Shown piece after piece: positions 7,575 to 64,000 of a stretch of DNA of 64,000 bases (within the stretch, counting starts at the first letter, position 1; each line of letters opens with the position of its first letter). This DNA is from Actinocorallia sp. API 0066 (GTDB taxonomy: Bacteria > Actinomycetota > Actinomycetes > Streptosporangiales > Streptosporangiaceae). The notes beneath the pieces were generated by a model that was not told the origin of the DNA, did no database searches, and saw nothing but the letters and a program-made list of their open reading frames with translations. The translations under genes and the position numbers were made by a program. The DNA is taken from positions 62,001 to 126,000 of the forward strand of contig NZ_JAJLQY010000005.1 of the NCBI RefSeq assembly GCF_020991275.1, read 5' to 3'.

Positions 7575-7916
7575 TCGTCACCTCTCGTCCAGCCGGGGGG
7601 ATTCCGGATCTCATGAGCGAGTAGCAGCTCCATCGTCACGTGGTGCGATCTCAACGTGACTACCGGCCAGTAGCCTGTGTCCGGTTTCACTAATCTAGTG
7701 CCGAATCACCAAAAGGGAAGGGCCGGAGAGGGGTTTTCGCGGCGAAACACGGCGACGTAAGACAATCGTTACTTACGGGTCTGACGTGATTATTGAGCAG
7801 TGACAAAAGGGCGACTCGGTCTCTACACCCAACCCAAAAGAACACTCACCACACGCGAAACGGCCGGCCACCCGTGCGGGGTGACCGGCCGTTGGACGCT
7901 CGTACGAGCGCGGGCC
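7575..7916. promoter_or_regulatory. Spacer between rplL and the mce operon, with three inverted repeats
   Basis: No gene is seen in these 342 bases. The right end holds the rplL terminator (7859-7893). The rest should contain the mce operon promoter and leader. Three dyads stand out: GTCACGT-N12-ACGTGAC at 7635-7660, CACTA-ATC-TAGTG at 7688-7700 and CGTAAG-N10-CTTACG at 7756-7777. Such dyads suit TetR- or GntR-type regulators known to control mce operons elsewhere, but no regulator gene is adjacent and I could not identify a convincing -35/-10 pair. Regulation is inference. Confidence 0.5.
7859..7893 (-). terminator. rplL terminator hairpin
   Basis: A 15-bp stem with one C/A mismatch and a 5-nt loop lies 24 bases past the rplL stop. 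On the transcribed strand it is followed by TTTCGCG, a weak U-run as is usual for high-G+C terminators. Confidence 0.75.
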
Positions 7917-8306
7917 CTACTTGACCGTGACGGTGGCGCCGGCGCCCTCAAGGGCGGCCTTGGCCTTCTCCGCGGCCTCCTTGTTGACCTTCTCCAGCAG
8001 CGGCTTGGGAGCGCCGTCCACCAGGTCCTTGGCCTCCTTGAGGCCGAGCGAGGTCAGCGCGCGGACCTCCTTGATGACCTGGATCTTCTTGTCGCCAGCG
8101 GCCTCGAGGATGACGTCGAACTCGTCCTGCTCCTCCTCGGCGGCGGCCGGGGCGCCGGGGGCGGCGGCACCGGGCGCGGCGACCGCGACGGGCGCGGCGG
8201 CCTTGACGTCGAAGGTCTCCTCGAACAGCTTCACGAACTCCGACAGCTCGAGAAGGGTCATCTCCTTGAACGCGTCGAGCAGCTCTTCGGTGCTGAGCTT
8301 CGCCAT
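7917..8306 (-). CDS. rplL: 50S ribosomal protein L7/L12
   Basis: Stalk protein that recruits translation factors, 129 aa, normal length. The N-terminal dimerisation domain (about 1-33), an Ala/Pro/Gly-rich hinge (about 35-58) and the C-terminal factor-binding domain ([20 protein letters not shown]) are all present. It follows rplJ by 68 bp and shares its leader-controlled transcript. A strong hairpin ends the unit. Unusually, rpoB does not follow; the mce operon does. Confidence 0.98.
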
Positions 8307-8374
8307 GATCTTTCCTCCGGGTATGGCTTATTGCTTAGGTCTGTTGTTGACCACGGGGGTCGGAAGGCCCGGCC

Positions 8375-8926
8375 TTATTCGGCCGGAGCCTCCTCGGTGA
8401 CGGTGTCGGCGCCCTCGGCGCGCTTGACGCGCAGGGCCTCCGAAAGCTGGGCCAGCTGGGTCGGCAGCGCGTTGAACAGCGCGGCCGCGTTGCTCTGCGA
8501 AGCCTTCAGCGCACCCGCGAGCTTCGCGAGGAGCACCTCGCGCGACTCAAGGTCGGCCAGCTTGCTGACCTGGTCGGCGTCCAGGGACTTGCCGTCCAGG
8601 TAGCCGCCCTTGATCACCAGCAGGGGGTTCGCCTTGGAGAACTCGCGCAGGCCCTTCGCGGCCTCGACCACGTCGCCCTTGACGAACGCGATCGCCGAGG
8701 GGCCCTGGAGCAGCGCGTCCAGGCCCTCAACGCCGGCGCCCTTCGCGGCGATCTTGGTCAGCGTGTTCTTCACGACAGCGAACTTCGCCGTGTCACCGAG
8801 GCTGCGGCGCAGCTCCTTGAGCTGAGCCACAGTGAGCCCGCGGTACTCGGTCAGCACGGCCGCGCTGGAGCTGGTGAAGTCGTTCTTCAGCTCCTCGACG
8901 GCCGCTGCCTTGTCCGCCCTCGCCAT
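8375..8926 (-). CDS. rplJ: 50S ribosomal protein L10
   Basis: Base of the L7/L12 stalk and autoregulator of its own operon, 183 aa. The sequence has the L10 hallmarks [16 protein letters not shown] and [10 protein letters not shown], and a C-terminal helical tail for L12 dimers ending in an acidic EEAPAE stretch. The ATG at 8926 has the near-perfect SD AAGGAG; the frame stays open far upstream but that part is the leader RNA, not protein. The long conserved leader upstream supports autogenous control. Confidence 0.98.
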
Positions 8927-9110
8927 GGGACTCCTTCTTCCACGTAGTGACCGCCCCGGCCCCGGACGCACAAAACGCCCCGGCGCAGATGCACACGGGA
9001 CGTCACAGGAGAAGATCATGTGAAGCTCGGGTTCACCTACGCGGGCCGTCCCGAGCGGACTCAGGACCCTTCGGCTGCCATGCGGCAGCAACCAGCGGTC
9101 TTCGGCACTA
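8927..9110 (-). ncRNA. L10-type ribosomal protein leader
   Basis: The transcribed strand upstream of rplJ holds GCCGAAGACCGCTGGTTG (complement of about 9089-9106), the hallmark of L10 leaders, followed by the hairpin GCTGCC-GCAT-GGCAGC (9074-9089) and further complementary G/C-rich segments before the SD. In the known family, the L10(L12)4 complex binds this RNA to repress rplJL. Exact ends are not defined; boundaries given are approximate. Confidence 0.65.
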
Positions 9111-9150
9111 GCCAGGCTACACGATTCCCCAAGATGCTTGGTAACGGGCG

Positions 9151-9181
9151 AGGGCCCCGGCGGCGCGGCTGCCGGGGCCCT
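9151..9181 (-). terminator. Terminator hairpin after the LppX-like lipoprotein gene
   Basis: Perfect 11-bp stem (AGGGCCCCGGC with GCCGGGGCCCT) and 9-nt loop, 28 bases past the stop at 9209. No U-run follows, so it may act with Rho or as an RNA-stabilising hairpin. It separates the lipoprotein genes from the rplJ leader. Confidence 0.65.
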
Positions 9182-9208
9182 GACGTTCGTCTGGGGTGGT
9201 TGCGTGGG

Positions 9209-10018
9209 TCAGGGGACCTGGAGGTCGCCGACCTGGTCGGCGGGGGGCGGGGTGACCGAGACTGGCTTGTCGTAGTCGCGGAAGACGACGGTGACGTTGA
9301 AGGTCTGGCCCTCGGTCGTGGTGACGGCGGTGACGACCTTGCGGGGCAGGTTCGCGGCGTCGGTCCAGATGTCGAAGCCGAGCTTCTCCGAGCCGTTGCT
9401 GAGCTGCTCGGCCGCCTGCTTCAGCTCGGGGTCGTACTTGGTGATCGCGTCCTTGATGTCGACGGTGCCCTTGTAGTGCACGGTGTCGACGCCGTCGATC
9501 TTCTCGGTGCCGACGCGCGTCACGTCGGTCGAGTCGGAGACGATCCTGGCCAGCTTGCCGGGGTCGGCCTGCTGGAACTGGTTGAGCAGCGCGTTCGGGT
9601 CGAACCCGGCGGCGCTCGCCGCCTCGCCGACGGTGATCTTCACCCAGGGCTTGCCGCCGCCGAGGAACTGCGCGAGCTGCTGGTTCTGCACGTAGAGCGT
9701 CTGGTCGAGCAGGATCAACCGGGTGCCGGAGACACCGACGTTGACCCCGGCGAACTCGAACGAGTCGAGCTTGACCGTGAACGCGGGAGCGGGCTTGAGC
9801 TGGAACGACCCGGAGCCCCGGGCCTTCCCGGCGCCGTCCACGGTGAGGTCGGCGCTGAACGTCTCGACCTTCTCCGTCTCGACGACGACCTGGTCGAGCG
9901 CCTCCACGGCGCTGACGTTCTCGGCGGGCAGCGCGGAGTCGGACGCCGAGCCGGCGCACGCGCTGAGCGCCAGAACGAGTGAGGTGCCGACCGCGGCACC
10001 GGCGACGAGCTTCTTCAT
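9209..10018 (-). CDS. LppX/LprG-like lipoprotein
   Basis: Predicted lipid-binding cell-envelope lipoprotein, 269 aa. Signal peptide with lipobox LSAC (Cys about residue 20). The rest resembles the LppX_LprAFG fold: repeated beta strands such as FSADLTVDGAGKARGSGSF, the KPWVKI segment, and a C-terminal DIWTDAANLPRKVV with TVVFRDYDKPV. In mycobacteria this family carries lipids or lipoglycans across the periplasm. The ATG at 10018 begins the signal peptide; an upstream extension is not signal-like. It is a paralogue of the next gene (both end in a VFRDYxKxV block). Ligand unknown. Confidence 0.8.
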   Translation of the reverse strand: MKKLVAGAAVGTSLVLALSACAGSASDSALPAENVSAVEALDQVVVETEKVETFSADLTVDGAGKARGSGSFQLKPAPAFTVKLDSFEFAGVNVGVSGTRLILLDQTLYVQNQQLAQFLGGGKPWVKITVGEAASAAGFDPNALLNQFQQADPGKLARIVSDSTDVTRVGTEKIDGVDTVHYKGTVDIKDAITKYDPELKQAAEQLSNGSEKLGFDIWTDAANLPRKVVTAVTTTEGQTFNVTVVFRDYDKPVSVTPPPADQVGDLQVP

Positions 10019-10114
10019 ACCCCGAAGTCTGCCTCCCCCACCCCGCCAACACATCCCCCGTCCGAACCAACCCACCCCGACCCCCCTCAGCCTCCCGACC
10101 TACCCACCCTCCCC

Positions 10115-10927
10115 TCACCCCGACCGATACGCCTCCACCTGCTGACGCGCCGGCGCCTTCACCACAACCCGCTTCCCGTAGTCCCGGAACACCACGGTGA
10201 TCGTCACCTCCTCGCCGTCCGGCATCACCGCCCGGATGACGGCCTTCCGCAGCAGGTCCTGCCCGTCCACCCACAACCACGTCACGTATGACGACGTCGC
10301 CGAGTCGTACTCGAACGCCTCCTTGACCCGTGGGTCGTCGAACCGCAGCCCGGCCCGCGTCCGGTCGAGCACCGCCCGGTACAGCACGGTGGGGACGCCG
10401 TCCAGCTCCTCCTCGCCCGCCCTGGTCACCACACCGAAGTCCGCCTGGAACCGGCTGACGGCGAAGGGGTCGGACTGCGGGAACGGGAGGGAGGGGCGTG
10501 CCGGGTCCGTCGTGGCGGCGTCGTTGTACTCGTCCACCGGCACGCTCAGCCACGGCTTCGACGAGGTCCGCTCGCCCTTGGGCAGCCACTCGTAGGCCAT
10601 GCCGTCGACGATGACCAGCCGTACCCTGCTCCAGGGCGACTTCCCCAGGGCGGAGGGGACCTCGGCGAGTTCGGTCCGCAGCGCGTACCGGGGAAAGCGG
10701 CGCACCTCGCCGTTGCCCCGCGCGCGGAACCCGCCCACCATCTCGATGTCGAACGCGTAGGAGCGCACCTGGTCCGTTTCTGTCGCCACCCGGACCATCG
10801 CCTCGTGCCCCGACAGCAGGCCGACGCCGACGAACCCGGACACCGGGGGCGGTTCCGGCCTCTTGGCGCAGCCGGTCGGGCCCGGAAGAAGGATCAGCGC
10901 GGCCGCCACGCCGACAACTCGCCTCAT
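10115..10927 (-). CDS. LppX/LprG-like lipoprotein, paralogue
   Basis: 270-aa lipoprotein with lipobox PTGC (Cys at about residue 20). Shares with the preceding gene the order of segments: an early strand pair with FRARGNGEVR, a W-containing KPWLSVPVDEY block, a WLWVDGQDLLRKAV segment and the C-terminal VVFRDYGKRV. The SD GGGAG lies 9 nt before the ATG. The two paralogues sit head-to-tail between rplA and rplJ with a 96-bp C-rich gap. Likely lipid binding in the envelope; no direct proof from the sequence. Confidence 0.75.
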   Translation of the reverse strand: MRRVVGVAAALILLPGPTGCAKRPEPPPVSGFVGVGLLSGHEAMVRVATETDQVRSYAFDIEMVGGFRARGNGEVRRFPRYALRTELAEVPSALGKSPWSRVRLVIVDGMAYEWLPKGERTSSKPWLSVPVDEYNDAATTDPARPSLPFPQSDPFAVSRFQADFGVVTRAGEEELDGVPTVLYRAVLDRTRAGLRFDDPRVKEAFEYDSATSSYVTWLWVDGQDLLRKAVIRAVMPDGEEVTITVVFRDYGKRVVVKAPARQQVEAYRSG

Positions 10928-11016
10928 GGGCGAATTCTCCCGTTATGACCAGCGTGCGCCTTCCAGAATGATCCTTTGTGATCAAACCGCAGCCGCCGGG
11001 CGCCGGGAAAAGCGGA

Positions 11017-11044
11017 AGGCCCGTGGGCGGGTGCCCACGGGCCT
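11017..11044 (-). terminator. rplA terminator
   Basis: Perfect 12-bp stem (AGGCCCGTGGGC with GCCCACGGGCCT) and GGGT loop, 29 bases past the rplA stop, followed on the transcribed strand by TTCCGCTTTTCCC. Confidence 0.85.
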
Positions 11045-11073
11045 CTTGTCGTCGCCCCTGGGGGCGGCGGGTG

Positions 11074-11790
11074 CTACTCGCCGTCGAGTTCGGCGGTGAA
11101 GCCGCGGGTGACGGACGGGTCGACCGGGATGCCGGGGGCCATCGTCGAGGTGACGGTGACCTTCTTCAGGTAGCGGCCCTTGGCGGCCGACGGCTTGAGG
11201 CGGAGGATCTCCTCGATCGCGGCGGCGTAGTTCTCCACGAGCTGGCGGTCGTCGAAGGACGCCTTGCCGATGATGAAGTGGAGGTTGGCGTGCCTGTCGA
11301 CGCGGAACTCGATCTTGCCGCCCTTGATGTCGGTGACGGCCTTGGCCACGTCCATCGTCACGGTGCCGGTCTTCGGGTTCGGCATGAGGCCGCGCGGACC
11401 GAGCACCCGGCCGAGCCGGCCGACCTTGCCCATCATGTCCGGGGTCGCGACCACGGCGTCGAAGTCGAGGAAGCCGCCGGAGATCTGCTCGATCACGTCG
11501 TCGGCGCCCACAAAGTCGGCACCGGCGGCGCGCGCCTCGTCGGCCTTGGCGCCACCGGCGATGACCAGCACGCGGGCGGTCTTGCCGGTGCCGTGCGGCA
11601 GGTTGACGGTGCCGCGCACCATCTGGTCGGCCTTACGCGGGTCCACCCCGAGCCGGGTGTTGACCTCGATCGTCGGGTCGAACTTGGTGACCTTGGTCTC
11701 CTTGGCCAGCCGCACCGCGTCGAGCGGGCTGTACAGCTCGTCCACGTTGATCTTCTCCGCCGCGGCCCGATAAGCCTTGCTGCGCTTCAT
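11074..11790 (-). CDS. rplA: 50S ribosomal protein L1
   Basis: Binds the L1 stalk of 23S rRNA and can repress its own mRNA in other bacteria. 238 aa, full length. The family signature is present around residues 120-145 ([20 protein letters not shown]) and the N-terminal [18 protein letters not shown] block is intact. The ATG has an AGGAAGGGGAAG-type SD close upstream. It is separated from rplK by an unusual 244-bp spacer with strong secondary structure. Confidence 0.98.
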
Positions 11791-11879
11791 CTGCTTCCCC
11801 TTCCTGGGAAGTCGTGGTGATAACGGACCGCGCGGGCCCTACCACTCGGTTTCTTCTTCTGTGCTGGTCTACCCGACCC

Positions 11880-11955
11880 GGATCGGGCGCCCCGGTGTCG
11901 CCCCGGAGGCCGCCAAGGCCGGAGGGGCGGCGCCGGGCTCGCAAGCGCCCGATCC
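11880..11955 (-). other. Large structured element in the rplK-rplA spacer
   Basis: An 11-bp perfect inverted repeat (GGATCGGGCGC at 11880-11890, GCGCCCGATCC at 11945-11955) encloses a CCCGG/CCGGG helix and an inner hairpin with CGCCCC/GGGGCG and GGCC/GGCC helices separated by a symmetric 3x3 internal loop. Both flanking genes are transcribed through it on the minus strand. It lacks a following U-run, so a simple terminator is unlikely. It could be a processing, stabilising or L1-responsive element; the function is unknown. Confidence 0.55.
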
Positions 11956-12034
11956 CGCCGCGGCGGAGCCGCGGCCAAAAAAACACAACTGCTCGATCAA
12001 GTGCTGGAAGGCCCCCCCGAAAGGAATGCTTCCC

Positions 12035-12466
12035 TTACTTGACTTCAATCCCCATCGATCGAGCAGTACCGGCGATGATCTTCGCGGCGGCGTCGATGTC
12101 GTTGGCGTTGAGGTCCTTCATCTTGAACTCGGCGATCTCGCGGAGCTGGGCCTCGGTGATGGAGCCGACCTTGGTCTTGTGCGGGACCGCGGAGCCCTTG
12201 TCGATGCCGGCGGCCTTCAGGATCATCTGCGGCGCCGGCGGCGTCTTGGTGACGAACGTGAAGGAGCGGTCCTCGTAGATCGTGATCTCGACCGGGATCA
12301 CGTTGCCGCGCTGGGCTTCGGTGGCAGCGTTGTACTGCTTGCAGAAGTCCATGATGTTGACGCCGTGCGGACCGAGCGCGGTACCGACGGGCGGCGCGGG
12401 GGTCGCGGCACCAGCGTTCAGCTGGACCTTGACGATCGCGGAGACTTTTTTCCTCTTCGGAGGCAT
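12035..12466 (-). CDS. rplK: 50S ribosomal protein L11
   Basis: Part of the GTPase-associated centre and target of thiopeptides. 143 aa. Conserved blocks: [20 protein letters not shown] at about 24-43 and [15 protein letters not shown] in the linker region. The ATG at 12466 is preceded by AAGGA seven bases upstream; a longer frame back to 12514 has no L11 similarity. Lies between nusG and rplA as in other actinobacteria. Confidence 0.98.
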
Positions 12467-12522
12467 ATCGCCATCCTTGTCCGTTCCGGGTGATTTCGGC
12501 TCCGACTCCTGCATGCACAGGC

Positions 12523-12556
12523 AACATCCCCGGCCGGAACGTGAGCCGGGGATGTT
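12523..12556 (-). terminator. Hairpin between nusG and rplK
   Basis: Perfect 12-bp stem (AACATCCCCGGC with GCCGGGGATGTT) and 10-nt loop. It lies 116 bases past the nusG stop and 57 bases before the rplK start, so it can end the secE-nusG message or sit in the rplK leader. No U-run follows. Confidence 0.6.
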
Positions 12557-12672
12557 GGAGCCCTTGAACCCCGACGCCGAAGGCGCGGGAAGACCTTAGA
12601 AGGATACCCGGCGGGCGAGCCGGGTCAGGCCGGGTCTCGGATCGGACTACCCCCGCGTGCGCGGGGAGAACG

Positions 12673-13437
12673 TCAGATCTTCGAGACCTGGTTGAAGGAG
12701 AGTTCGACGGGGGTCTCGCGGCCGAAGATCGAGACGAGGACCTTGAGCTTCTGGGTGTCCAGGTTGATCTCGTTGACCGTGGCGGGCAGCGTCGCGAAGG
12801 GGCCGTCCATGACGGTCACGGACTCGCCGACCTCGAAGTCGACGGTCGCGGCGACCTTGGTGGCGGCGGACTTGGCGGCCTGCGCCTGCTCGGGGGCCTC
12901 GGGCGCGAGCAGCTTGGCGACCTCTTCCAGGCTCAGCGGCGACGGCTTGTTCGACAGGCCGACAAAGCCGGTGACGCCCGGGGTGTTGCGGACGGCGCTC
13001 CAGGACTCGTCGGTCAGGTCCATCCGCACCAGGATGTAGCCGGGCAGGACCTTCTCGTTGACCTTCTGGCGCTTGCCGCCCTTGATCTCGGTGACCTCGT
13101 GCTGGGGCACCTCGATCTGGAAGATGTAGTCCTCCATGTTCAGGGTCGTGGTGCGGGTCTCGATGTTGCTCTTGACCCGGTTCTCGTACCCCGCGTAGGA
13201 GTGGATGACGTACCAGTCGCCCGGAAGCAGCCGCAGCTCGCGCGCGTACTCGGCGACGGGGTCGACCGCGGGCGCGGCCTCCGCCTCGTCCTGGTCGTCC
13301 GCCTCGTCCTGCGGCTCCCCGGTCCCGGCTTCGACGTCCTGGGCCTCGACGGCCTCGGCGGTCTCCGTCTCCTCGGGAACCTCCTCCGACTGCGGCTCCT
13401 GCGGGAGCTCGTCGTGGAACTGCGAGGACTCGGACAC
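12673..13437 (-). CDS. nusG: Transcription elongation/antitermination factor NusG
   Basis: Couples RNA polymerase to Rho or ribosome. 254 aa, longer than the usual 180 because of an acidic, disordered N-terminal extension (about residues 1-65, very rich in Glu/Asp/Ala). The NGN domain follows ([20 protein letters not shown]), then the KOW domain near the C-terminus ([21 protein letters not shown]). A further 30-residue Ala/Lys linker separates the two. The GTG start at 13437 matches the secE spacing of 56 bp. Such acidic extensions are common in actinobacterial NusG. Confidence 0.97.
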
Positions 13438-13493
13438 GGCGGTGACTCTTTCTCTCCGGGAACGGTGTGGTGGAACGCTCTCGCGCGGCTCTT

Positions 13494-13736
13494 CTAGGTG
13501 AAGAGGGCGAAGATGGCCTCCTGAAGTCCCCAGTCGAGCAGCGAGACGATACCGATCATGACGAGGACGAAGACCAACGACACGATCGTGTAGTTGATGA
13601 GCTCCTTGCGAGTAGGCCAGATGACCTTGCGCAGCTCACCGATGACCTGGCGGATGAACAGAGCAGGCCCGGTGCGCTTGCGCTTCGCCGGCTTGCCCTT
13701 GTCCTCGGTAGCGGCGTCGCGAATGTCAGTCGCCAT
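13494..13736 (-). CDS. secE: Preprotein translocase subunit SecE
   Basis: Single-spanning clamp subunit of SecYEG, 80 aa. Lys/Arg-rich N-terminus, conserved amphipathic stretch [20 protein letters not shown] and one C-terminal membrane helix (about 52-72). The ATG at 13736 follows the SD GAGGGTGAG. Cotranscribed with tRNA-Trp upstream and nusG downstream. Confidence 0.97.
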
Positions 13737-13839
13737 CTCACCCTCGTTCGGATTGATCGTCCGACACGGCGTGTTTTCCGCCGCGCGTGCATCCACAGTA
13801 TGCGTGCTCACGTGCGGCTGGGAACGTGAAGCTGCTCCG

Positions 13840-13912
13840 CAGGGCAAGAGGGACTCGAACCCCCAACCGCCGGTTTTGGAGACCGGTGCGCTACCAATTG
13901 CGCCATTGCCCT
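13840..13912 (-). tRNA. tRNA-Trp (CCA)
   Basis: 73-nt cloverleaf on the minus strand: acceptor AGGGCAA/TTGCCCT with discriminator G, D-arm with GCGC, anticodon stem CCGGT/ACCGG presenting CCA, and T-loop GTTCGAGTC. No encoded CCA end. Its position just before secE is the usual actinobacterial arrangement. Confidence 0.97.
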
Positions 13913-13950
13913 ACAGCGGGCGTGCTCGCGCATCACACCGCTAGGTCAGC

Positions 13951-13980
13951 AGCATACGCATCCGAGCGCGCCACGTCGAA
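13951..13980 (-). promoter_or_regulatory. Promoter for tRNA-Trp-secE-nusG
   Basis: On the minus strand TTCGAC (13975-13980) and TATGCT (13951-13956) are separated by 18 bp, a good fit to a housekeeping sigma promoter. The predicted start lies about 30 bases before the tRNA. Confidence 0.6.
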
Positions 13981-14069
13981 CCGGAATCGCGTCGGCGCGT
14001 CTAGTCCTTCCGGGTGGTTTCCCCGCACGACACCCACGGGGGACCGCCCTGATCAGGCAGGATTGGCAG

Positions 14070-15128
14070 ATGGAGCGCCGTGATCTCGCCCTGCTGCCGA
14101 AGGCACATCTGCACCTGCACTTCACCGGATCCATGCGGCACAGCACCCTGGTGGAGCTGGCGCTGCGGCACGGGGTCCACCTGCCGGAGTCGCTGGTGTC
14201 GGAGTGGCCGCCCGCCCTGCGCGCGACGGACGAGCGCGGCTGGTTCCGGTTCCAGCGCCTGTACGACCTGGCCAGGTCCGTCCTGCAGGAGCCCGACGAT
14301 CTGGTCCGGCTCGTCCGGGAGACGGCGGAGGACGAGGCGGCCGAGGGTTCCGGCTGGCTGGAGATCCAGGTGGACCCGTCGGGCTACCAGCACAGGTTCG
14401 GCGGGCTGACGCCGACGCTGGAGCTGGTCCTGGAGGCCGTCAGACGGGCCGAGGAGGCCACCGGCGTCGGGATCGGGGTGATCGTCGCGGCGAACCGCAC
14501 ACGGCACCCCCTGGACGCGAAGATCCTCGCGCGGCTCGCCGCCCAGTACGCGGGCCGTGGCGTGGTGGGCTTCGGGCTGTCCAACGACGAGCGCCGGGGC
14601 CGTCCCTACGAGTTCGAGGGCGCGTTCCGGATCGCGGGCCGGGCCGGGCTGCTGCTGGCCCCGCACGGCGGCGAGTTGCAGGGCCCGGAGTCGGTGCGGC
14701 CGTGCCTTGACCTGCTGCACGCCGACCGGATCGGCCACGGCGTCCGCTCGGTGGAGGATCCGGGCCTGGTCGAGCGGATCGCCGAGCGCGGGGTGACGCT
14801 TGAGGTGTGCCCGGCGTCGAACGTCGCGCTGGGTGTGGCGCGGAGCGCGGCCGAGGTGCCGGTGCGGCGGCTGTACGAGGCGGGGGTGCGGATGGCGCTG
14901 GGCGCGGACGACCCGCTGCTGTTCGGCTCGCGCCTGGTCACCCAGTACGAACTGGCGCGCAGCGAGCACGGTTTCGGCGACGCGGAGCTGGCCGACCTCG
15001 CCCGTTCCTCGATCCGTGGTTCCGCGGCGCCGCCGGACCTCCGCAAGCGGCTCCTGGCGGGCGTCGACGAGTGGCTGGCCGCCCCGCCCGCGAAGGCGGA
15101 CCTGGCGGCCGGGTGGCACACCTCGTGA
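14070..15128 (+). CDS. add: Adenosine deaminase-family protein
   Basis: Metal-dependent amidohydrolase expected to deaminate adenosine or a related purine. 352 aa, one TIM-barrel. Zinc ligands are seen in KAHLHLHFTG (about residues 11-20), PHGGE (about 213-217), the DRIGHG block (about 233-238) and the catalytic ADDP (about 288-291). Two positions differ from classical ADA: HFTG replaces HLDG, where the Asp contacts the ribose, and HGGE replaces HAGE. This points to a subfamily whose substrate may not be adenosine. The gene starts near a CAGGAT element 6 nt upstream and converges on murB with abutting stop codons. Confidence 0.8.
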   Translation: MERRDLALLPKAHLHLHFTGSMRHSTLVELALRHGVHLPESLVSEWPPALRATDERGWFRFQRLYDLARSVLQEPDDLVRLVRETAEDEAAEGSGWLEIQVDPSGYQHRFGGLTPTLELVLEAVRRAEEATGVGIGVIVAANRTRHPLDAKILARLAAQYAGRGVVGFGLSNDERRGRPYEFEGAFRIAGRAGLLLAPHGGELQGPESVRPCLDLLHADRIGHGVRSVEDPGLVERIAERGVTLEVCPASNVALGVARSAAEVPVRRLYEAGVRMALGADDPLLFGSRLVTQYELARSEHGFGDAELADLARSSIRGSAAPPDLRKRLLAGVDEWLAAPPAKADLAAGWHTS

Positions 15129-32303: not shown

Positions 32304-34034
32304 ATGGGTTATCCGGGTGACAGCAACCAGCCTCGGCAGTCCTGGGACAGCGACCCCCTTGACACCGACGGGGACGACTGGTCCCGCCATCCCCGGAGCG
32401 CACCGGTTCCGCCTCAGCAGCAGCCCGCCGAGCAGCCGGGCGAGCCCGCCGGACCGTGGCAGGCCCCCCCGGCCTGGGGCGAGCAGCCGCCCGCCCCGCC
32501 CATCCCGCCCGCTCAGCCCGGCCAGCCCGGCGGATCCTGGCTGGAGGGCGCCGCCGCCCGGCCGCAGGGCCCGTTGGATGGCCAGCAGTGGTCCGGCGAC
32601 CCGCTCGCGGCGCCGCCCGCCACCGCGCTCGACCCCGGCACCGGCGGCCAGCCGGTCTACGACACGTGGCAGGGCCAGCCCGAGCCGTCCTACGACGGAC
32701 CCAGCGGCCCGCAGCAGTCCCCCTGGCATGACGACGTGCCCGGCGGCGGCGGCTCGTTCGGCCCCGGCGCGGGCGAGGCCGGCACCGGCACCGGCACCCA
32801 CGCCCTGCCCCGCTACGACGGCCAGGGCTCCTACGACACCGGCTCCTACGACGCCGACGCCTACGGCGAGGAGGCCAGGCACGACGCCGAGCGCTTCGGC
32901 GGCGGCGCCACCGCCAGCGGCAGCTACGAGGTGCCGCAGTACGACCCGGCGAGCTACGCCGCGCCGCCCGTCCCGCCGCAGAGCGCCTGGGGCGAGCCCC
33001 GCCCCGGCGAGTACGACGCCCCCGGCGGCGGCTACGACCCGCACGCCGCCCCGGTCGGCTACGACCCCCACGCGGCCCCCGTCGGCTACGACGGCCCCGG
33101 CGCGCCCGGCGAGTTCGGCGCCCCCGGCGTCCCCGGACCCCCCGGCGAGTTCGGCGGCCACGGCGGGCCCGGCGGCCCCGGCACCCCGAACGACTTCGGC
33201 GGCCCCGGCGGCTGGGACGCGCCGCCGCCGCAGGGCGGCCCCCACGAGCGCGGCGAGCAGTGGCAGCCCGAGGGCGCCCGCGACGAGATCAGCGGCTCGC
33301 GCGGCGGCCGCAAGGGCCTGCTCGTCGCGGGCGGCGTCGCCGTCGCCCTCGTGGCGGGCGGCGCCGCCGCTTACGCGCTCACCCGGGACGGCGGCACCGA
33401 CAAGCCCGGCGTCGCGCAGTCCCCTCCGGCCTCCGGCGTCCCCGTCCCCGGCGCGACGTCCTCCCCCGAGCAGCCCGCCGCGTCCGGCGGCCTCCTCAAG
33501 TCCCGCAAGACCGACCCCAGGCCGCTCAAGGCGGGTGAGGTCTTCCAGAAGAAGAGGTTCACCGTCAAGGGCACCACCTACGTGATGTACATCCGCAAGG
33601 CGACGAAGAAGTGCGCCGACGCCGTCCACGGGGAGGCGCTCCAGGCCGCCCTGAAGCGGGGCAGGTGCACCCAGTTCCTGCGCGCGACGTTCGCCACGAA
33701 GGACGGCAAGATGATCGGCACCGTCGGCGTGGCGAACCTCCGCACGTCGCAGGCGGCGGCCCGCGCCGAGAAGGCCGCCAAGGCCAAGGACGCCTACGTG
33801 CTGGCCGTCCCGGGCAAGGGCGCCACGGCCAAGATCGGCCAGGGCGACGCGCTCGGCGCCGCCTGGGTGCGCGGCCACTACCTGATCATGACGTGGGTGC
33901 AGAACCCCGACGGCAAGCCGATTCCCGCCAAGCAGCGCAAGCGCGCGCAGATCTTCGCGCAGAACACGGTGAACGGCAGCAATCTTGGACCGGCACTGCA
34001 CATTCGCGACGCGACGGGCAGACCGGCAGCCTGA
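32304..34034 (+). CDS. Single-pass membrane protein with disordered N-terminus, paralogue 1
   Basis: 576 aa, function unknown. Residues 1-335 are Pro/Gly/Tyr/Gln-rich and probably disordered in the cytoplasm, with short repeats such as GYDPHAAPV (twice, about 245-262). One membrane helix at about 338-360 (GLLVAGGVAVALVAGGAAAYAL) is followed by a linker and a C-terminal extracellular domain (about 400-576) with KTDPRPLKAGEVFQKKRF, two Cys (KKCADAV, RGRCTQF) and an Ala/Lys-rich stretch. The same C-domain recurs in the next gene. Not an actinobacterial family I can name. Confidence 0.75.
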   Translation: MGYPGDSNQPRQSWDSDPLDTDGDDWSRHPRSAPVPPQQQPAEQPGEPAGPWQAPPAWGEQPPAPPIPPAQPGQPGGSWLEGAAARPQGPLDGQQWSGDPLAAPPATALDPGTGGQPVYDTWQGQPEPSYDGPSGPQQSPWHDDVPGGGGSFGPGAGEAGTGTGTHALPRYDGQGSYDTGSYDADAYGEEARHDAERFGGGATASGSYEVPQYDPASYAAPPVPPQSAWGEPRPGEYDAPGGGYDPHAAPVGYDPHAAPVGYDGPGAPGEFGAPGVPGPPGEFGGHGGPGGPGTPNDFGGPGGWDAPPPQGGPHERGEQWQPEGARDEISGSRGGRKGLLVAGGVAVALVAGGAAAYALTRDGGTDKPGVAQSPPASGVPVPGATSSPEQPAASGGLLKSRKTDPRPLKAGEVFQKKRFTVKGTTYVMYIRKATKKCADAVHGEALQAALKRGRCTQFLRATFATKDGKMIGTVGVANLRTSQAAARAEKAAKAKDAYVLAVPGKGATAKIGQGDALGAAWVRGHYLIMTWVQNPDGKPIPAKQRKRAQIFAQNTVNGSNLGPALHIRDATGRPAA

Positions 34035-55517: not shown

Positions 55518-57629
<2,112 letters not shown>

Positions 57630-57670
57630 TGTGCTCGCGTCCTTGCTCTCGTGGGTTCAGCCGACCGCTG

Positions 57671-58141
57671 TTACCAGCGGTAGTGGGCGAAGGCCTTGTT
57701 GGACTCGGCCATCTTGTGGGTGTCCTCGCGCTTCTTGACCGAGGCGCCCAGGCCGTTGCTGGCGTCGAGCAGCTCGTTCATCAGACGCTCGGTCATCGTC
57801 TTCTCGCGGCGGCCGCGGGAGTAGGTGACGAGCCAGCGGAGCGCGAGCGTGGTGCTGCGGGCCGGCCGGACCTCGACCGGGACCTGGTAGGTCGCGCCAC
57901 CGACACGGCGGGACTTGACCTCGATGGTCGGCTTCACGTTGTCGAGCGCGCGCTTGAGGGTGACGACCGGGTCGTTGCCGGTCTTCTCGCGGCAGCCTTC
58001 GAGCGCGTTGTAAACGATGCGCTCGGCGATGGAACGCTTGCCGTCCAGCAGGATCTTGTTGATCAGGCTGGTGACCAGCGGCGAGTTGTACACCGGGTCG
58101 GCGACCAGTACGCGCTTGCCCGCGGGGCCCTTACGCGGCAT
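57671..58141 (-). CDS. rpsG: 30S ribosomal protein S7
   Basis: 156 aa: [20 protein letters not shown], then [19 protein letters not shown] and [13 protein letters not shown] 58141 overlaps the rpsL stop (TAATG), the usual coupled arrangement. Confidence 0.98.
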
Positions 58142-58515
58142 TAGCTCTTCTCCTTCTTCGCGCCGTAGCGGCTGCGCGCCTGCTTGCGGTTGCGGACACC
58201 CTGGGTGTCGAGCGAACCGCGGATGATCTTGTAGCGAACACCCGGCAGGTCCTTCACACGACCGCCGCGCACCAGCACGATGGAGTGCTCCTGCAGGTTG
58301 TGTCCGACACCCGGGATGTAGGCGGTGACCTCGATGCCACTGCTCAGGCGGACACGGGCGACCTTCCGCAGCGCCGAGTTCGGCTTCTTCGGCGTCGTCG
58401 TGTACACGCGGGTGCAGACGCCGCGGCGCTGGGGGCTTCCCTTCAGCGCGGGCGTCTTGGTCTTGGTCACCTTGTCCTGCCGGCCCTTTCGGACCAACTG
58501 CTGGATTGTGGGCAC
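58141..58515 (-). CDS. rpsL: 30S ribosomal protein S12
   Basis: 124 aa. Decoding-centre loops [11 protein letters not shown] and [13 protein letters not shown] carry the wild-type Lys at the positions linked to streptomycin resistance, so no resistance change is seen. GTG start at 58515. First gene of the str operon; rpoC is not adjacent. Confidence 0.98.
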
Positions 58516-58849
58516 CGCTCTCCGTCTTCCTTCGTCGTACCGGGCCCGGTCTCCGCGACCGGGTGAGCACGGCTTGTCCGTGCTCTGTTTTGTATGCGCG
58601 AGTCACACCCGGAATTTCTCGTCCGCGCATAACCCTGGATCAGCGGCCCTCGACGAGCCTCTGACCTGCTGGTTTGCTTGTTCCGCCGACCCCCGCGGTC
58701 GGGCGTGTCGCGCCGACCGTGGCCCGCCCGGCCCCGAGGGGCCTGGACCTTGAGGATCGCTTGGAATCCACGTCGCGCCGCGGCCGCCAGATACGGACCC
58801 GCCGGAGCGCACGCAAGCGTGACCCGCGATGCCGCGGGCACGAAGATAG

Positions 58850-58878
58850 AGCGTACCCAACCCCTGAGACGAGGTCAA
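58850..58878 (-). promoter_or_regulatory. str operon promoter
   Basis: TTGACC (58873-58878) and TACGCT (58850-58855) on the minus strand with a 17-bp spacer, a textbook match to actinobacterial housekeeping promoters. The start would lie near 58843, giving a leader of about 330 nt. Confidence 0.75.
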
Positions 58879-59002
58879 AGCGAATACGCCATTACCGGGT
58901 AAGGGGCGTCCGGCGCAACCTTCGCGGGGCCGAACCGCCGATGCCCTGGGGGAGGAACGGGCTGATAAGCGGGAAAAGTTCCGGAACGCCTGGATGAACG
59001 AT

Positions 59003-59035
59003 AAGACCCGTATGTCCGGAGATCATACGGGTCTT
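59003..59035 (-). terminator. Terminator after the YGQP-repeat gene
   Basis: Perfect 12-bp stem (AAGACCCGTATG with CATACGGGTCTT) and 9-nt loop, 61 bases past the stop at 59097. Confidence 0.85.
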
Positions 59036-59096
59036 CGCGTGATCCGTCACCGGGCGGGCGTGCGGGTGCCCATCCGGTGGCAAGAACGGCCCCGGC

Positions 59097-61100
59097 TCAC
59101 CAGAGCGGGGCGAAGAACGCGACGAGGATCACCACGACGGCGACGAGCGCGACGAGGCCGAGCCAGATCCAGATCTTGTTGTCCGAACCCTCGGACTGCT
59201 CCTCCTCGGCGCCCCCCTGCGCGGCGGGCTGCTCGCCGTACTGCTGCTGCCCGTACGGCTGGCCGCCCTGACCCTGCTGGGCCGGTGCCTGTCCGCCCTG
59301 GCCGTAGGGCTGGTCGCCGCCGTACTGCTGGTGCTGGCCGTAGGGCTGCTGCCCGTACTGGCCGTACCCCGGCTGTCCCGGCTGACCCTGCTGGCCGTAC
59401 TGCGGGGCCTCGCCCGGCTGGGCCTGCTGTCCGGGCTGGCCGTAGGGCTGCGCCTCGCCCTGGGCGGGCTGGCCGTACTGCTGGGCCTGGTCGCCCTGGG
59501 CGGGCTGGCCGAAGGGCGTCCCCTGGTCCCCCGGCTGGCCGTAGGAGCCGGGCTGGCCCTGAGCCTGCTGGCCGTAGGGGGAGGCGGGCTGGCCGCCGTA
59601 GGGCTGACCGTACTGGGCGGGCTGGCCGTAGCCGCCCGGCTGGTCGGGCTGGGCGTAGCCGTAGGGCTGCTGCTGGCCGTACGGCTGCTGGGGCTGGCCC
59701 GGCTGCGGGTAGGGCTGCGGCTGGCCGTACTGCGACGGCTGCTCGCCCGGCTGGCCGTACTGCGGTGCCTGGTCGGCGGGCTGGCCGTAGGACGGGGCCT
59801 GGTCGGCCGGGGGGCGGGCGTCGAACGCCTGGGTGGCGTCGGGGTCGGCCCCGGCCGGGGCGGCCGCCTGCTGGCGGAACGCGCTGGCGTCGAAGTCCAG
59901 CACCGTCTCGCCGCCGACCGGGGGCGCCGCCGGGTTCGGCTTGCCCCACGGCCGCTCGGGCTCGTGGACCGTCTCGTCCAGCGCCGGTTCGACGGGCGGC
60001 CGGTTGGTGACGAGCGGGATGTCGCCCGGGTAGGGCTGGCTGGACGGCGCGGGGACGTCCTTCCGGTCCGCCTCCGGCTGCGGCGTGCCGAGCCCCGGGA
60101 TCACCGTCGTGGCGGGCGCCTCGCCCACGGGCGGGCGCAGGTCCTCGCGCTTGGGCAGCACCGTGGGCGCGGTGCCCCACGGGTCCTCCAGCTCGGGCGC
60201 CGGACGCTCCTCGGCGGCCCCGGGATCACTGACCGTCGGGTAACCCCCCGAGGCACCGGACCCGCCGAACCCCTCCCCCGACGGCCGCCCGTAGGCGGGC
60301 GCCGACGGGTAACCGGAAGGCTGCTCACCCGGAGCGGGATAACCGGGGGGCTGCTCGCTCTGAGCCGGGTAAGCCGGAGGCTGTTCCTGCGGCGCCGGGT
60401 AGGCGGGCGGCTGCTCGGCCGGGGTCGGGTAGGCGGGCGGCTGTTCGCTCTGGGCCGGGTAGCCGGGCGCGCCGCTCGGCGGGGCCCAGGCCGTCGGCGG
60501 CTGCGGCGCGGAAGGCCGTCCGGGCGCCTGCCAGCCGGACTGCGGCGGCTGCCCGTAGGAGGACTCTGCGGGCTGCCCATAGGGCGGCTCGGCGGGCTGC
60601 GGGGGCTGTCCGTAAGCGGGCTCGGCCTGCGGCGCGGCGGGCTGGCCGTAGGGCGACTCGCCGCCCTGGGCGGGCTGGCCGTACGGGGACTCCGGCTGCG
60701 GGGCGGGCGCGGCGCCGTAGGGGTTCGCGGGCTGGCCGTAGGGCGCGGGCGGCTGGCCGTAGGCGGAGGGCGCCGGGGAGCCGTAGGGGGACGGCTGCGC
60801 GTACGGGTCGGCGGGGGGCGGCGCCTGGCCGGACGGGGGCTCGGCGGGCGGGAAGCCCGGAGCGGGCTGGCCGTAAGGGGCGGCGCCCGGCTGCCCGTAG
60901 GGCTCGGCGGGCTGGGCCGGCGGCGCGGGCGGCTGGGCCGGGGGCCTCGGCGGGCGGAGCTGCGGGGCGCCGAAGACGACGGTGCGCTCCCCCGCGGGTC
61001 TGGTGGGCGGATCGATCTGGTCGGGAGCGCCGGTGTCGGGCTGGTCGGCCGATGCCGGCTCCTCCTGCGACGGCCACTGCGGGCCGCTCTGCTCGGTCAT
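59097..61100 (-). CDS. YGQP-repeat, tail-anchored disordered protein
   Basis: 667 aa, function unknown. Nearly the whole chain is low complexity: two long regions of imperfect PYGQP/QYGQP repeats (about residues 60-290 and 460-640), and a middle Pro/Glu-rich part with motifs such as ERTVVFGAP (about 37-45), [10 protein letters not shown] and [10 protein letters not shown] single membrane helix ([20 protein letters not shown]) closes the C-terminus, so it is probably tail-anchored with the repeats in the cytoplasm. ATG 61100 starts [15 protein letters not shown]. The TxxF-like segments could be phosphothreonine sites for FHA proteins; that is inference. Confidence 0.75.
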
Positions 61101-61255
61101 CGGTGGACTCCTTATCGGCTCTCGAATACCACACGACCAGTTCACAGAGTGCCCGGTGCGCCTGCATACGGCAAATCCCCCGGCCACCGGTCAAGATTTC
61201 TTCCGTCCCGATTGAGCAAAGATCTCCGCTTTGGGGCAGGCCGTTTCCGGGTAAG

Positions 61256-61261
61256 TAGGCT
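61256..61261 (+). promoter_or_regulatory. -10 element TAGGCT for the DsrE-like gene
   Basis: TAGGCT ends 6 nt before the ATG at 61268; TTGGGG (61231-61236) is a possible weak -35 at 19 bp. No SD is present, so leaderless translation is likely. Confidence 0.5.
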
Positions 61262-61267
61262 GCCGCC

Positions 61268-61633
61268 ATGACTCGATCGCTGGTGATCAAAGTGACCGCG
61301 GGGGCCGACGCCCCCGAGCGCGCCAACCAGGCGCTGACGGTGGCCGCGGCCGCCGTCGCGAGCGGGGTCGGCGTGTCCCTGTGGCTGACCGGTGAGTCCG
61401 CGTGGTTCGCGGTGCCGGGCAAGGCGGCGGAGTTCCCGGCCCTGCCGCACGCGACACCGGTCGTGGACCTGCTCGGCATCGTGCTCGCCGGGGGCCGGGT
61501 GACGCTGTGCACGCAGTGCGCGGCGCGGCGCGACCTCACCGGCGACGACCTGCTGCCGGGCGTGCGGATAGCGGGCGCGCCCGCGTTCGTCGAGGAGGTC
61601 ACCGGAGAGGGCGTCCAGGCCCTCGTCTACTGA
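61268..61633 (+). CDS. DsrE-family protein
   Basis: 121 aa. DsrE/DsrF-like fold: LVIKVTAGADAPERANQALT, GVSLWLTGESAWFAVPG and TLCTQCAARRDLTGDDLLPG with a CxxC (about 81-84) in the position where family members carry the sulfur-relay Cys. Could handle sulfur or be a small binding protein. Overlaps the next gene (opposite strand) by seven bases at the 3' ends. Confidence 0.7.
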   Translation: MTRSLVIKVTAGADAPERANQALTVAAAAVASGVGVSLWLTGESAWFAVPGKAAEFPALPHATPVVDLLGIVLAGGRVTLCTQCAARRDLTGDDLLPGVRIAGAPAFVEEVTGEGVQALVY

Positions 61634-61914
61634 GGGTCGTCGCGGGGCGGGTGGTGCTCGCGGCGCTCGATGTGGACCGCCGCCTCCTCGGCCGGACGGT
61701 CGTCGGGCGGCGGATCCGCCCGGCGCGCCTCCTCGCGGAGCCACTCGGTGATGCCGATCTCGCCCCGGTCCTCGTCGGTGATGACGCGGTCGCGGGGCGG
61801 GTCCTCCTCGTAGGCGCGCAGGAGGTCGATCTCGAACTGCTGGTCGTCGTCGCCCATGTCGGGCGGAACGGGCGGTGTCCGGTCCCGGCCGCCGCCCTCG
61901 CGCTCACGGTCCAT
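61627..61914 (-). CDS. Small acidic hypothetical protein
   Basis: 95 aa, very rich in Asp, Glu, Arg and Pro. Contains the segment DQQFEIDLLRAYEEDPPRDR followed by GEIGITEWLREEARRADPPP. No known domain. ATG 61914 begins MDREREGGGRDR. Coding status is fair: the frame is biased and conserved-looking, but it is short. Confidence 0.5.
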   Translation of the reverse strand: MDREREGGGRDRTPPVPPDMGDDDQQFEIDLLRAYEEDPPRDRVITDEDRGEIGITEWLREEARRADPPPDDRPAEEAAVHIERREHHPPRDDPQ

Positions 61915-62020
61915 GGCACTCCTCCCGGATCGCCACCCCTTGTCAGTCCATCTTGTCCGTTCGCGGGACAAGAGAGGACAAAGGAATAACGTCCGGGAGG
62001 CGCGGTTCGTGCCCGTCCGG

Positions 62021-62740
62021 TCAGGAGGAGGCCGGGAGGACCGCCCGCAGGCGCTCCTCCCGCAGGCGTCCCGCCCAACTGTCGTCGACCGGCTCCAAGC
62101 GGCGCTTGACCGCCCAGCCGAGCAGCAGATCGGCGAGACCCGGGTTGCGGACCAAAGCGGGCCCGTGCATGTAGGTGCCGACGATGTGGCCCGCGTAAGC
62201 GCCCTCGTAGCCGTCACCGTTGCCGATGCCGACCGCGACCCGCGCCAGCGGCTTCACGCTCGGGCCGAGCCGGGTGACGCCCTGGTGGTTCTCGAACCCG
62301 GTGATCATCGGCACGCCGAGCGCCGGATCCACCTCGCCCGCGATCTCGCCGACGGCCCGGATCTCGCCCCGGCCGCTGCGGATGTCGAGCAGGCCGACAC
62401 CCTGGACGGGCTGGCCCTCCTCGCCGCCGAACTCGTGACCGAGCAACTGGTAGCCCGCGCACACCGCGAACACCGCCGCGCCGAACTCGACGGCCTTGTG
62501 CAGGCCGCCGTCCGCGCGCAGCCGCTGCGCCGCGAGGATCTGCGGCCGGTCCTCACCGCCGCCGAGCAGGTAGATGTCACCGTCCACGGGGACCGGCTCG
62601 TCCGAGCGGACCCGCACCGTCCGGGGGATGATGCCGCGCAGCCGGGCCCGCCGCTCCAGGACGATGACGTTGCCGCCGTCACCGTAGGTGCTGAGCAGGT
62701 CGGGGTAGATCCAGACGATCTTGATCTCTTCAGAGGGCAC
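62021..62740 (-). CDS. gatD: Lipid II isoglutaminyl synthase, glutaminase subunit GatD
   Basis: CobB/CobQ-type glutamine amidotransferase that supplies ammonia to MurT for amidation of lipid II D-Glu. 239 aa. Nucleophilic Cys in VCAGYQLLG (about 92-100) and His in YMHGP (about 191). GTG 62740 overlaps the murT stop by 11 bases, so the two are coupled. Confidence 0.95.
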   Translation of the reverse strand: MPSEEIKIVWIYPDLLSTYGDGGNVIVLERRARLRGIIPRTVRVRSDEPVPVDGDIYLLGGGEDRPQILAAQRLRADGGLHKAVEFGAAVFAVCAGYQLLGHEFGGEEGQPVQGVGLLDIRSGRGEIRAVGEIAGEVDPALGVPMITGFENHQGVTRLGPSVKPLARVAVGIGNGDGYEGAYAGHIVGTYMHGPALVRNPGLADLLLGWAVKRRLEPVDDSWAGRLREERLRAVLPASS

Positions 62741-63962
62741 GGCCGTACCTCGTTCGGATGTTCTGGAAGGCTGTGTAGTTGGCGATCACGTCGAGCTTGC
62801 CGGGCGGCACCGCCAGGACCGCCTGCTCGATGTCGTCGACGACGCGGAAGTCGACCTCGGCGGCCTCCAGGCGGGTCGCGAGGTCGAGCCTGCGCTCACC
62901 CGTCGCCCACACCGGACGGCCCTTGAGGACGCGGTAGTCGACGTCCCAGAGCCACGAGGTGTCACGGCCGTCGGGGCCCTGCGCGTTGATCGACAGCGCG
63001 ACCGGGCCCGGCGCGGGCTCCAGCACGTCGAACGCCTCCAGCCAGCCCGCCGGGTTCTTCGCCAGCAGCAGCCGGATGTCACGGCCCTGGAACTGGACCG
63101 TGGTGTACCGGCCCGCGACCGAGGCGACCCGGCCCAGCAGCGGCAGCGCCTGCTCCGGCGCGATCCCGAACAGGGCGACGACGGCCAGCGCCATCGCGCC
63201 GTTGGAGCGGTTGGCCCGGCCCGGGAGCTGGAGATCCAGGCCGTAGGTGTGGCCGCCGGGGGTCGTCACCCTGTCGCCGTGCAGGATCCAGTCCGGCTTC
63301 GGCCTGGCGAACGGGCACTGGCGGCACGCCCAGTGGCTTCCGTCGCGGTCGAGCGGCCCGCCGCACTCGGGACAGCACCAGGAGTCCTCCTTCCAGTGCT
63401 GGCCCACCGCGACCCAGGTGACCTTCCTGGCCGTCGAGGCGCCCCAGGTGACGAGCGGGTCGTCGCAGTTCGCCACGACGTGCGTGTCGGCGCCGTCCAG
63501 GGCCTTGCGCCACTTGCCGGCGAGCTGCCAGATCTCGCCCGCGCGGTCCATCTGGTCGCGGCTCAGGTTCATCAGGAGGACGATGTTGGCCTTCGTCTCG
63601 CTCAGGACCAGCGGCACGTACTTCTCGTCGCACTCCAGCACGCCGTACTGGGCGTCCGGCGCGGCGGCCAGCGCGCTGACGTGCCCGGTGGGCATGTTGG
63701 CGCCGAACGCGTTCGTGGCGACCTCGCCCAGGCCGCTCATCGCGCTCGCGATCAGCCTGGTCGTTGTGGTCTTGCCGTTGGTGGCGCTGACGAGGACGAG
63801 TTTGCGATCCGCGGACAGCCTGGTGAGGAGTTCGGGGTCGAGCTTCAGCCCGATCTTCCCGCCGATCACCGATCCGTCGCCTCGTCCGGCCAGCCGCGAC
63901 ATGCGCGAGGCGGTCCGCCCGAGGGCGACCGCCAGCTGCGACCGCAGCGGAAGATCACTCAT
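62730..63962 (-). CDS. murT: Lipid II isoglutaminyl synthase, Mur-ligase-like subunit MurT
   Basis: 410 aa. ATP loop TNGKTTTTR (about 61-69), Mur central domain with CDEKYVPL and a four-Cys zinc ribbon (CCPEC and CRQC, about 197-217) as in MurT. Forms a heterodimer with GatD. ATG 63962 has SD GGGGAAAGAGAAG. In actinobacteria the pair amidates peptidoglycan D-Glu. Confidence 0.97.
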   Translation of the reverse strand: MSDLPLRSQLAVALGRTASRMSRLAGRGDGSVIGGKIGLKLDPELLTRLSADRKLVLVSATNGKTTTTRLIASAMSGLGEVATNAFGANMPTGHVSALAAAPDAQYGVLECDEKYVPLVLSETKANIVLLMNLSRDQMDRAGEIWQLAGKWRKALDGADTHVVANCDDPLVTWGASTARKVTWVAVGQHWKEDSWCCPECGGPLDRDGSHWACRQCPFARPKPDWILHGDRVTTPGGHTYGLDLQLPGRANRSNGAMALAVVALFGIAPEQALPLLGRVASVAGRYTTVQFQGRDIRLLLAKNPAGWLEAFDVLEPAPGPVALSINAQGPDGRDTSWLWDVDYRVLKGRPVWATGERRLDLATRLEAAEVDFRVVDDIEQAVLAVPPGKLDVIANYTAFQNIRTRYGRAL

Positions 63963-64000
63963 CGCTTCTCTTTCCCCTATAAGCCCGACTCAGGCCGACT

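Follow-up and report, generated by a model that had tools for sequence, protein, structure and literature searches.

FHA domains recognise phosphothreonine specifically (PMC5663475), and the residue at pT+3 has a role in their binding (PMC5549992). In Mycobacterium smegmatis, the sites that change upon loss of PstP are preferentially phosphothreonines near acidic residues (PMC6554272). In the M. tuberculosis protein Rv1747, an N-terminal part with a disordered linker and two FHA domains forms condensates, for which a lower concentration suffices once PknF has phosphorylated it; Rv1747 is also found in nanoclusters in the membrane (PMC9312465). In the human Hippo pathway, the disordered linker of MST2 carries seven Thr-Met sites which are bound redundantly by the FHA domain of SLMAP (PMC5663475). 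In mycobacterial envelope control, a threonine phosphorylated by PknB is read by an FHA protein in the CwlM-FhaA and MurJ-FhaA pairs (PMC6180346).

The stretch of 64,000 nucleotides of Actinocorallia sp. API 0066 analyzed here, referred to as the window, encodes a long, putatively tail-anchored protein upstream of rpsL and fusA. Like the ABC transporter Rv1747, it would be a membrane protein with a cytosolic disordered stretch; however, it has no FHA domain or transporter of its own (no Pfam or NCBIfam match); FHA domains would act in trans, and it carries YGQ repeats in addition. Its likeness to MST2, which in contrast is a kinase, is one of arrangement, and no homology of the chains is claimed. 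The phosphothreonine read by an FHA protein would be shared with CwlM-FhaA and MurJ-FhaA, whose clients are, however, not repeat scaffolds. The way such a scaffold would work is of a known kind, whereas an FHA-read chain with its partners in trans is probably a new arrangement.

The gene and its product

The features of the locus are compiled in Table 1. The gene starts with the ATG at 61100 and comprises 667 codons and a stop codon. A longer frame with a GTG start at 61187 was rejected, as the orthologues begin at a matching MTE, MTD or MSE instead. The protein consists of 22.6% P, 15.4% Q, 13.8% G, 13.5% A and 6.4% Y, with P, Q, G, Y and A together making up 72%, and YGQ was counted 25 times. 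Of all tandem-repeat rows of the window, 22 of 49 fall at 59297-60953, inside the gene; a separate tandem-repeat cluster lies at 32484-33212. Residues 285-430, between the two repeat regions, contain little Q and Y; six of the seven threonine motifs listed for the window protein are located there.

Table 1. Features of the locus in window coordinates
Feature	Position	Strand	Basis or remark
rpsL, first gene of the str operon	58141..58515	-	
Hairpin 3' of the gene, terminator-like without T-run	59003..59035	-	12-pair stem
Gene of the tail-anchored disordered protein	59097..61100	-	ORF and orthologues; 667 aa
C-terminal membrane helix (modelled at aa 641-663) and end	59100..59180	-	AlphaFold2, sequence
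Q/G/Y-rich YGQ repeat tail, about aa 430-625	59226..59813	-	32% Q, 22% G, 11% Y; tandem repeats
Island ATQAF, aa 422-426	59823..59837	-	T column 48/50
Island ETVLDF, aa 398-403	59892..59909	-	ET[VIR][LM]DF in all three of this genus
Island DETVHE, aa 375-380	59961..59978	-	EETVRE in L038; absent from L037
Island TTVIP, aa 331-335	60096..60110	-	in L038; absent from L037
Island PTVLP, aa 312-316	60153..60167	-	kept in L038, altered in L037
P-rich YGQP and YPA-EQP repeat stretch, about aa 60-285	60246..60923	-	tandem repeats, composition
Island 1 ERTVVF, aa 38-43	60972..60989	-	T column 50/50
Shine-Dalgarno AAGGAG	61108..61113	-	7 nt before ATG 61100, read from sequence
Divergent DsrE-family gene	61268..61633	+	not next to the gene in the loci read of other genera

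AlphaFold2, run with 12 orthologues, predicts a single structural element, the helix at residues 641-663 (10-residue block means of 82-93). Everything else is predicted to be disordered, and the mean pLDDT of the whole protein is 47. Together with the reading frame and the repeats, this single predicted helix confirms the preliminary description of this DNA, which had reported a long Pro/Tyr/Gly/Gln repeat protein ending in one membrane helix. In all 50 long orthologues at most six residues follow the helix, which places it within the roughly 30 C-terminal residues that define a tail anchor. On average, 2.3 basic residues (K+R) precede the helix and 0.16 follow it, and the former outnumber the latter in 50 of 50 orthologues. 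By the positive-inside rule, the long chain is therefore probably cytosolic, with the predicted helix in the membrane. The same charge pattern argues against an envelope or surface protein with an extracellular repeat domain. Repeats rich in P, Y, G and Q are common among secreted proteins. However, the only helix is at the C-terminus and is preceded by most of the basic residues, and no hydrophobic N-terminal stretch was seen by eye in the protein sequence, which makes a surface location very improbable.

No profile of a named family in Pfam, NCBIfam or PADLOC matched the protein, and no description of it was found in the literature searched, as judged by titles and the beginnings of abstracts. 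It apparently belongs to an undescribed actinobacterial protein family with conserved threonine motifs; the family itself is real.

Genomic context and distribution

The gene had been described as sitting where rpoC is usual. We read 63 rpsL loci from this GTDB family, the window's own and 62 of relatives, and recognized rpoC by its active-site motif. In 24 loci this motif lies 2.7-3.25 kb upstream, placing rpoC next to rpsL. A P/Q/G/Y-rich tail-anchored reading frame is found up to 1.5 kb upstream of rpsL in 17 loci, and an eighteenth locus (L131) carries the gene about 3.0 kb upstream. A different long membrane-ended frame occupies this place in 13 loci, and eight belong to none of these classes or end too soon. 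Among the 18 gene-bearing loci, rpoC is present further upstream on the same strand in nine; in the other nine, the window included, it lies outside the stretch read. Thus, rpoC does often adjoin rpsL, but in the nine loci that show both, the gene lies between rpoC and rpsL and does not replace rpoC. In the genome of the window, rpoC is located 66 kb from rpsL on the same contig and strand (G000:C40:53238-54473 versus C40:120144); the gene has therefore remained beside rpsL while rpoC has not.

Genomes G090, G134 and G052 yielded three more members, all with rpoC upstream, and one more (G113) was recognized by its N-terminus only. A search of genome contigs for RPxG[DE]RTVVF gave 73 pattern matches in 56 loci from Actinomadura, Thermomonospora, Spirillospora, Actinocorallia and two MAGs, with rpoC seen upstream in 20. 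The whole long gene is present in 46 of the 56. The distance from its end to the start of rpsL is 421-690 bp in 44 of these and 2543 bp in L226; in L244 rpsL lies outside the stretch covered. One orthologue (L141, G020) is split between two frames in a draft assembly. An N-terminal profile matched four of 42 genomes (G098, G113 and G020, and weakly G011, with a stop inside); it is incompletely sensitive, as it missed G114, which carries the gene. In a set of 394 genomes of the class that includes family members, eight matched at E up to 0.001, four of which are known members; the other four (E 6e-4 to 1e-3) were taken as chance. At most 16 candidates were scored per genome, so that this is a weak negative for the gene outside the family. 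Six further N-terminal search matches (L108, L111, L112, L118, L121 and L123) were passed through a filter that displayed two of them, and none was accepted as a member.

Given its place, the gene might be a regulator of, or a leader gene for, the str operon, and in Actinocorallia it is kept next to rpsL although rpoC is far off. We nevertheless consider such a role improbable: a gap of 399-690 bp separates gene and operon in most loci, the gene lies about 3.0 and 2.5 kb from rpsL in L131 and L226, many relatives lack it at rpsL, there is no Rfam match at 57000-64000, and a hairpin follows the gene. This hairpin had been taken as a terminator. The 112-nt stretch holding it folds with a z-score of -3.7, and in 32 of the 46 whole genes found by the motif, the 150 nt after the gene contain a hairpin equalled by at most one of 20 shuffles. 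It has no T-run, however, and is absent from the list of a scan of the window for T-tailed terminators; a terminator is thus likely but no more than that.

The divergent DsrE-family gene was dismissed as a synteny partner, being kept beside the gene in three of 61 loci, all of the window's genus. Of 150 family genomes, 146 have a match to its product. In this genus a GatD/MurT-like pair for lipid II amidation, scoring below the NCBIfam cut-offs, also adjoins the gene (62021-63962, minus strand, in the window).

Conserved threonine islands

We aligned 50 long orthologues, namely those of the window, L038, L142 and L143 and the 46 whole ones found by the motif, excluding ten that were cut off or broken. 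The repeats, whose alignment the preliminary description had proposed as a check, drift in length and order, while the consensus keeps seven short threonine islands, one of them TR.D.GQQQW. Their T columns hold threonine in 50, 43, 47, 46, 50, 48 and 41 of the 50 sequences, and serine replaces threonine twice in all. The conservation of island 1 is partly by construction, since the motif used to find the named orthologues is that of island 1.

The pattern [DE]RT(VLIM)2(FVIL) occurs 134 times in the 50 orthologues, at least once per protein, and not at all in 200 shuffles (mean 0.0, maximum 0). Discounting one occurrence per protein still leaves at least 84, and the serine form of the pattern occurs 0 times. 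TxxF is found 105 times versus 16.1 in shuffled sequences and SxxF three times versus 15.7, and TQAF occurs 26 times in 26 of the 50 proteins. The islands often have D or E at -2 and a hydrophobic residue at +3, some having P, D or E at +3. Three TxxF-like segments had been pointed out previously: RTVVF and DATQAF are true TxxF motifs, whereas TVLDF has its F at +4. T423, A425 and F426 are invariant in a 12-row alignment. The window's genus keeps ERTVVF and DATQAF and shows PTVLP, TTVIP and ETVLDF where other genera have RTLIV and RTMMV; PTVLP and TTVIP are not found in Actinocorallia populi of the same genus. Genome-wide, three of five matches to the [DE]RT-hydrophobics pattern in G098 and three of nine in G085 fall in this gene, with one and no match, respectively, in a backwards control. 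Of the other eight matches, five lie in long frames of high GC3 that by eye read like folded proteins, and three in short or low-GC3 frames.

Furthermore, each of the six threonine columns examined uses two or three different codons. Among 15 close pairs, the islands have a pN/pS of 0.17, the repeat tail 0.27, the linker 0.28 and the helix 0.51; the corresponding values in 300 random pairs, in which synonymous change is high, are 0.47, 0.56, 0.64 and 0.94, the helix being highest in both sets. Purifying selection outside the repeats, on which the preliminary description had made its reading depend, is thus seen most strongly in the islands. A functionless low-complexity expansion, which the drift of the repeats in order and length might suggest, is hardly credible given that the islands are kept over genera despite synonymous change.

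A further alternative is a membrane condensate scaffold driven by YGQ/PQG multivalency, in which the islands would bind a non-FHA partner or be kinase sites whose phosphorylation dissolves the assembly. The YGQ-type composition is indeed kept while orthologue length varies from 446 to 819 aa, and the repeat tail itself has a pN/pS of 0.27 in close pairs. However, the strongest conservation falls in the islands and not in the repeats, and threonine is hardly ever swapped for serine, which a bare kinase site would allow. We therefore regard this alternative as unlikely, though the strongest of the competing explanations.

FHA domains as putative readers

As expected for FHA ligands, the islands hold a conserved threonine, not serine, in fixed surroundings, and the frequent acidic residue at -2 and hydrophobic one at +3 likewise suit a phosphothreonine-specific FHA reader; conservation of threonine only fits reading by FHA domains because these are specific for phosphothreonine (PMC5663475). 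The genome of the window has six FHA matches and 49 Pkinase matches, 48 of them over the cut-off. Named from sequence, the FHA proteins would be FhaA- and FhaB-like neighbours, one GarA-like protein and three others. Thus, the proposed resemblance of the islands to FHA-binding phosphosites gains indirect support from their specificity for threonine, their occurrence far above chance and the presence of both domain types in the genome.

With slightly more confidence than doubt, we propose that the protein is a tail-anchored cytosolic scaffold on which Hanks kinases phosphorylate threonines that FHA domains bind in trans. The C-terminal helix, as supported by prediction and charge pattern, would tether the disordered chain of 640 residues to the inner side of the membrane. 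Hanks-type Ser/Thr kinases would phosphorylate several of the conserved threonines, and FHA domains would dock on these, the +3 residue helping selectivity. Several docking sites and the sticky YGQ/PQG repeats together could gather FHA proteins in membrane patches, perhaps condensates; that such repeats might form condensates, as the preliminary description had suggested, is plausible. The repeats would serve as spacer and glue, and hence their composition would be kept more than their order. Possible clients are the FhaA/FhaB/PknB system or a zinc-ribbon/FHA protein whose operon includes a kinase. The conserved threonines could also serve a reader other than FHA. The motif conservation gives this clade-wide protein a testable role and names the threonines to test. 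If the proposal is true, docking sites and FHA domains reside on separate proteins, so that the roles of docking and of sticky repeats in bacterial membrane condensates become separable.

At 13 loci from other genera of the GTDB family, a different long disordered membrane-anchored protein is encoded upstream of rpsL. Motifs were counted in 12 of these (L157, L158, L159, L161, L163, L168, L172, L174, L176, L177, L182 and L187; L164 was left out). There are 12 TWAF motifs, spread over 11 of the 12 proteins, versus 0.02 in shuffled sequences, and nine GSGNTWAF in eight. TxxF is found 36 times versus 9.3 and SxxF 14 times versus 19.0 in shuffled sequences, and TQAM-like motifs are also present. 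These proteins share their place with the scaffold and likewise have threonine-specific motifs, TWAF and TQAM. However, their C-terminal domain has more than one hydrophobic stretch and the [DE]RT-hydrophobic motif is present in none of the 12; the likeness is one of place and motifs, and no shared origin is claimed.

A candidate partner

The candidate partner in the genome of the window consists of a zinc ribbon, a 305-residue YGQP-rich linker, a second zinc-ribbon-like piece and an FHA domain. It is encoded last in a run on the minus strand (L343, G000:C1:384500-402500, at 7791-14394), together with a Ser/Thr kinase, a 370-aa protein, a ClpB-like AAA ATPase and a Fer4_12 4Fe-4S/radical-SAM protein. 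SLMAP is the best PDB sequence match of its FHA domain, and the alignment places Arg, Ser and His opposite SLMAP R32, S52 and H55, which are described as pT-binding residues (PMC5663475). The partner also has a motif, REETLIPPE, that resembles ERTMMVPPPE of the scaffold, and both proteins may therefore be substrates of one kinase.

All 22 gene-bearing genomes have a relative of the partner (E up to 1e-8), as do 17 of 53 without the gene, the 53 being those whose rpsL loci were read without finding it, some on short contigs (L188 was left out). Its linker measures 126-340 residues in the 20 gene-bearing genomes in which it was measurable (two were not), versus 27-34 residues in four measured genomes of the 17 lacking the gene and in two genomes outside both groups. 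Among the other 13 of the 17, G027 has an open frame (453 aa) long enough for a linker. In G048 and G089, in which neither the gene nor an rpsL match was found, the linker has 153 and 132 residues. Independent co-evolution of the gene with the FHA operon was rejected, as an FHA tree of 30 rows explains the co-occurrence by one change in one clade. The additional members in G090, G134, G052 and G113 lend it weak support because their genera already had members.

A homotypic YGQ pairing with the FHA protein, suggested by the genome of the window, is no general rule, since the Tyr contents of linker and scaffold are anticorrelated (rho -0.57, p 0.025, n=15); in Thermomonospora, among others, the linker contains little Tyr. 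A two-part device, in which the multi-phosphothreonine chain recruits in trans the zinc-ribbon/low-complexity/FHA protein of the kinase-ClpB-like AAA-radical-SAM operon into membrane condensates and kinase activity sets the place of assembly, is conceivable but quite doubtful. At six further places of the same genome (L310, L313, L314, L317, L327 and L328), other proteins carry three YGQ close together, and several of these proteins appear by eye to have membrane helices.
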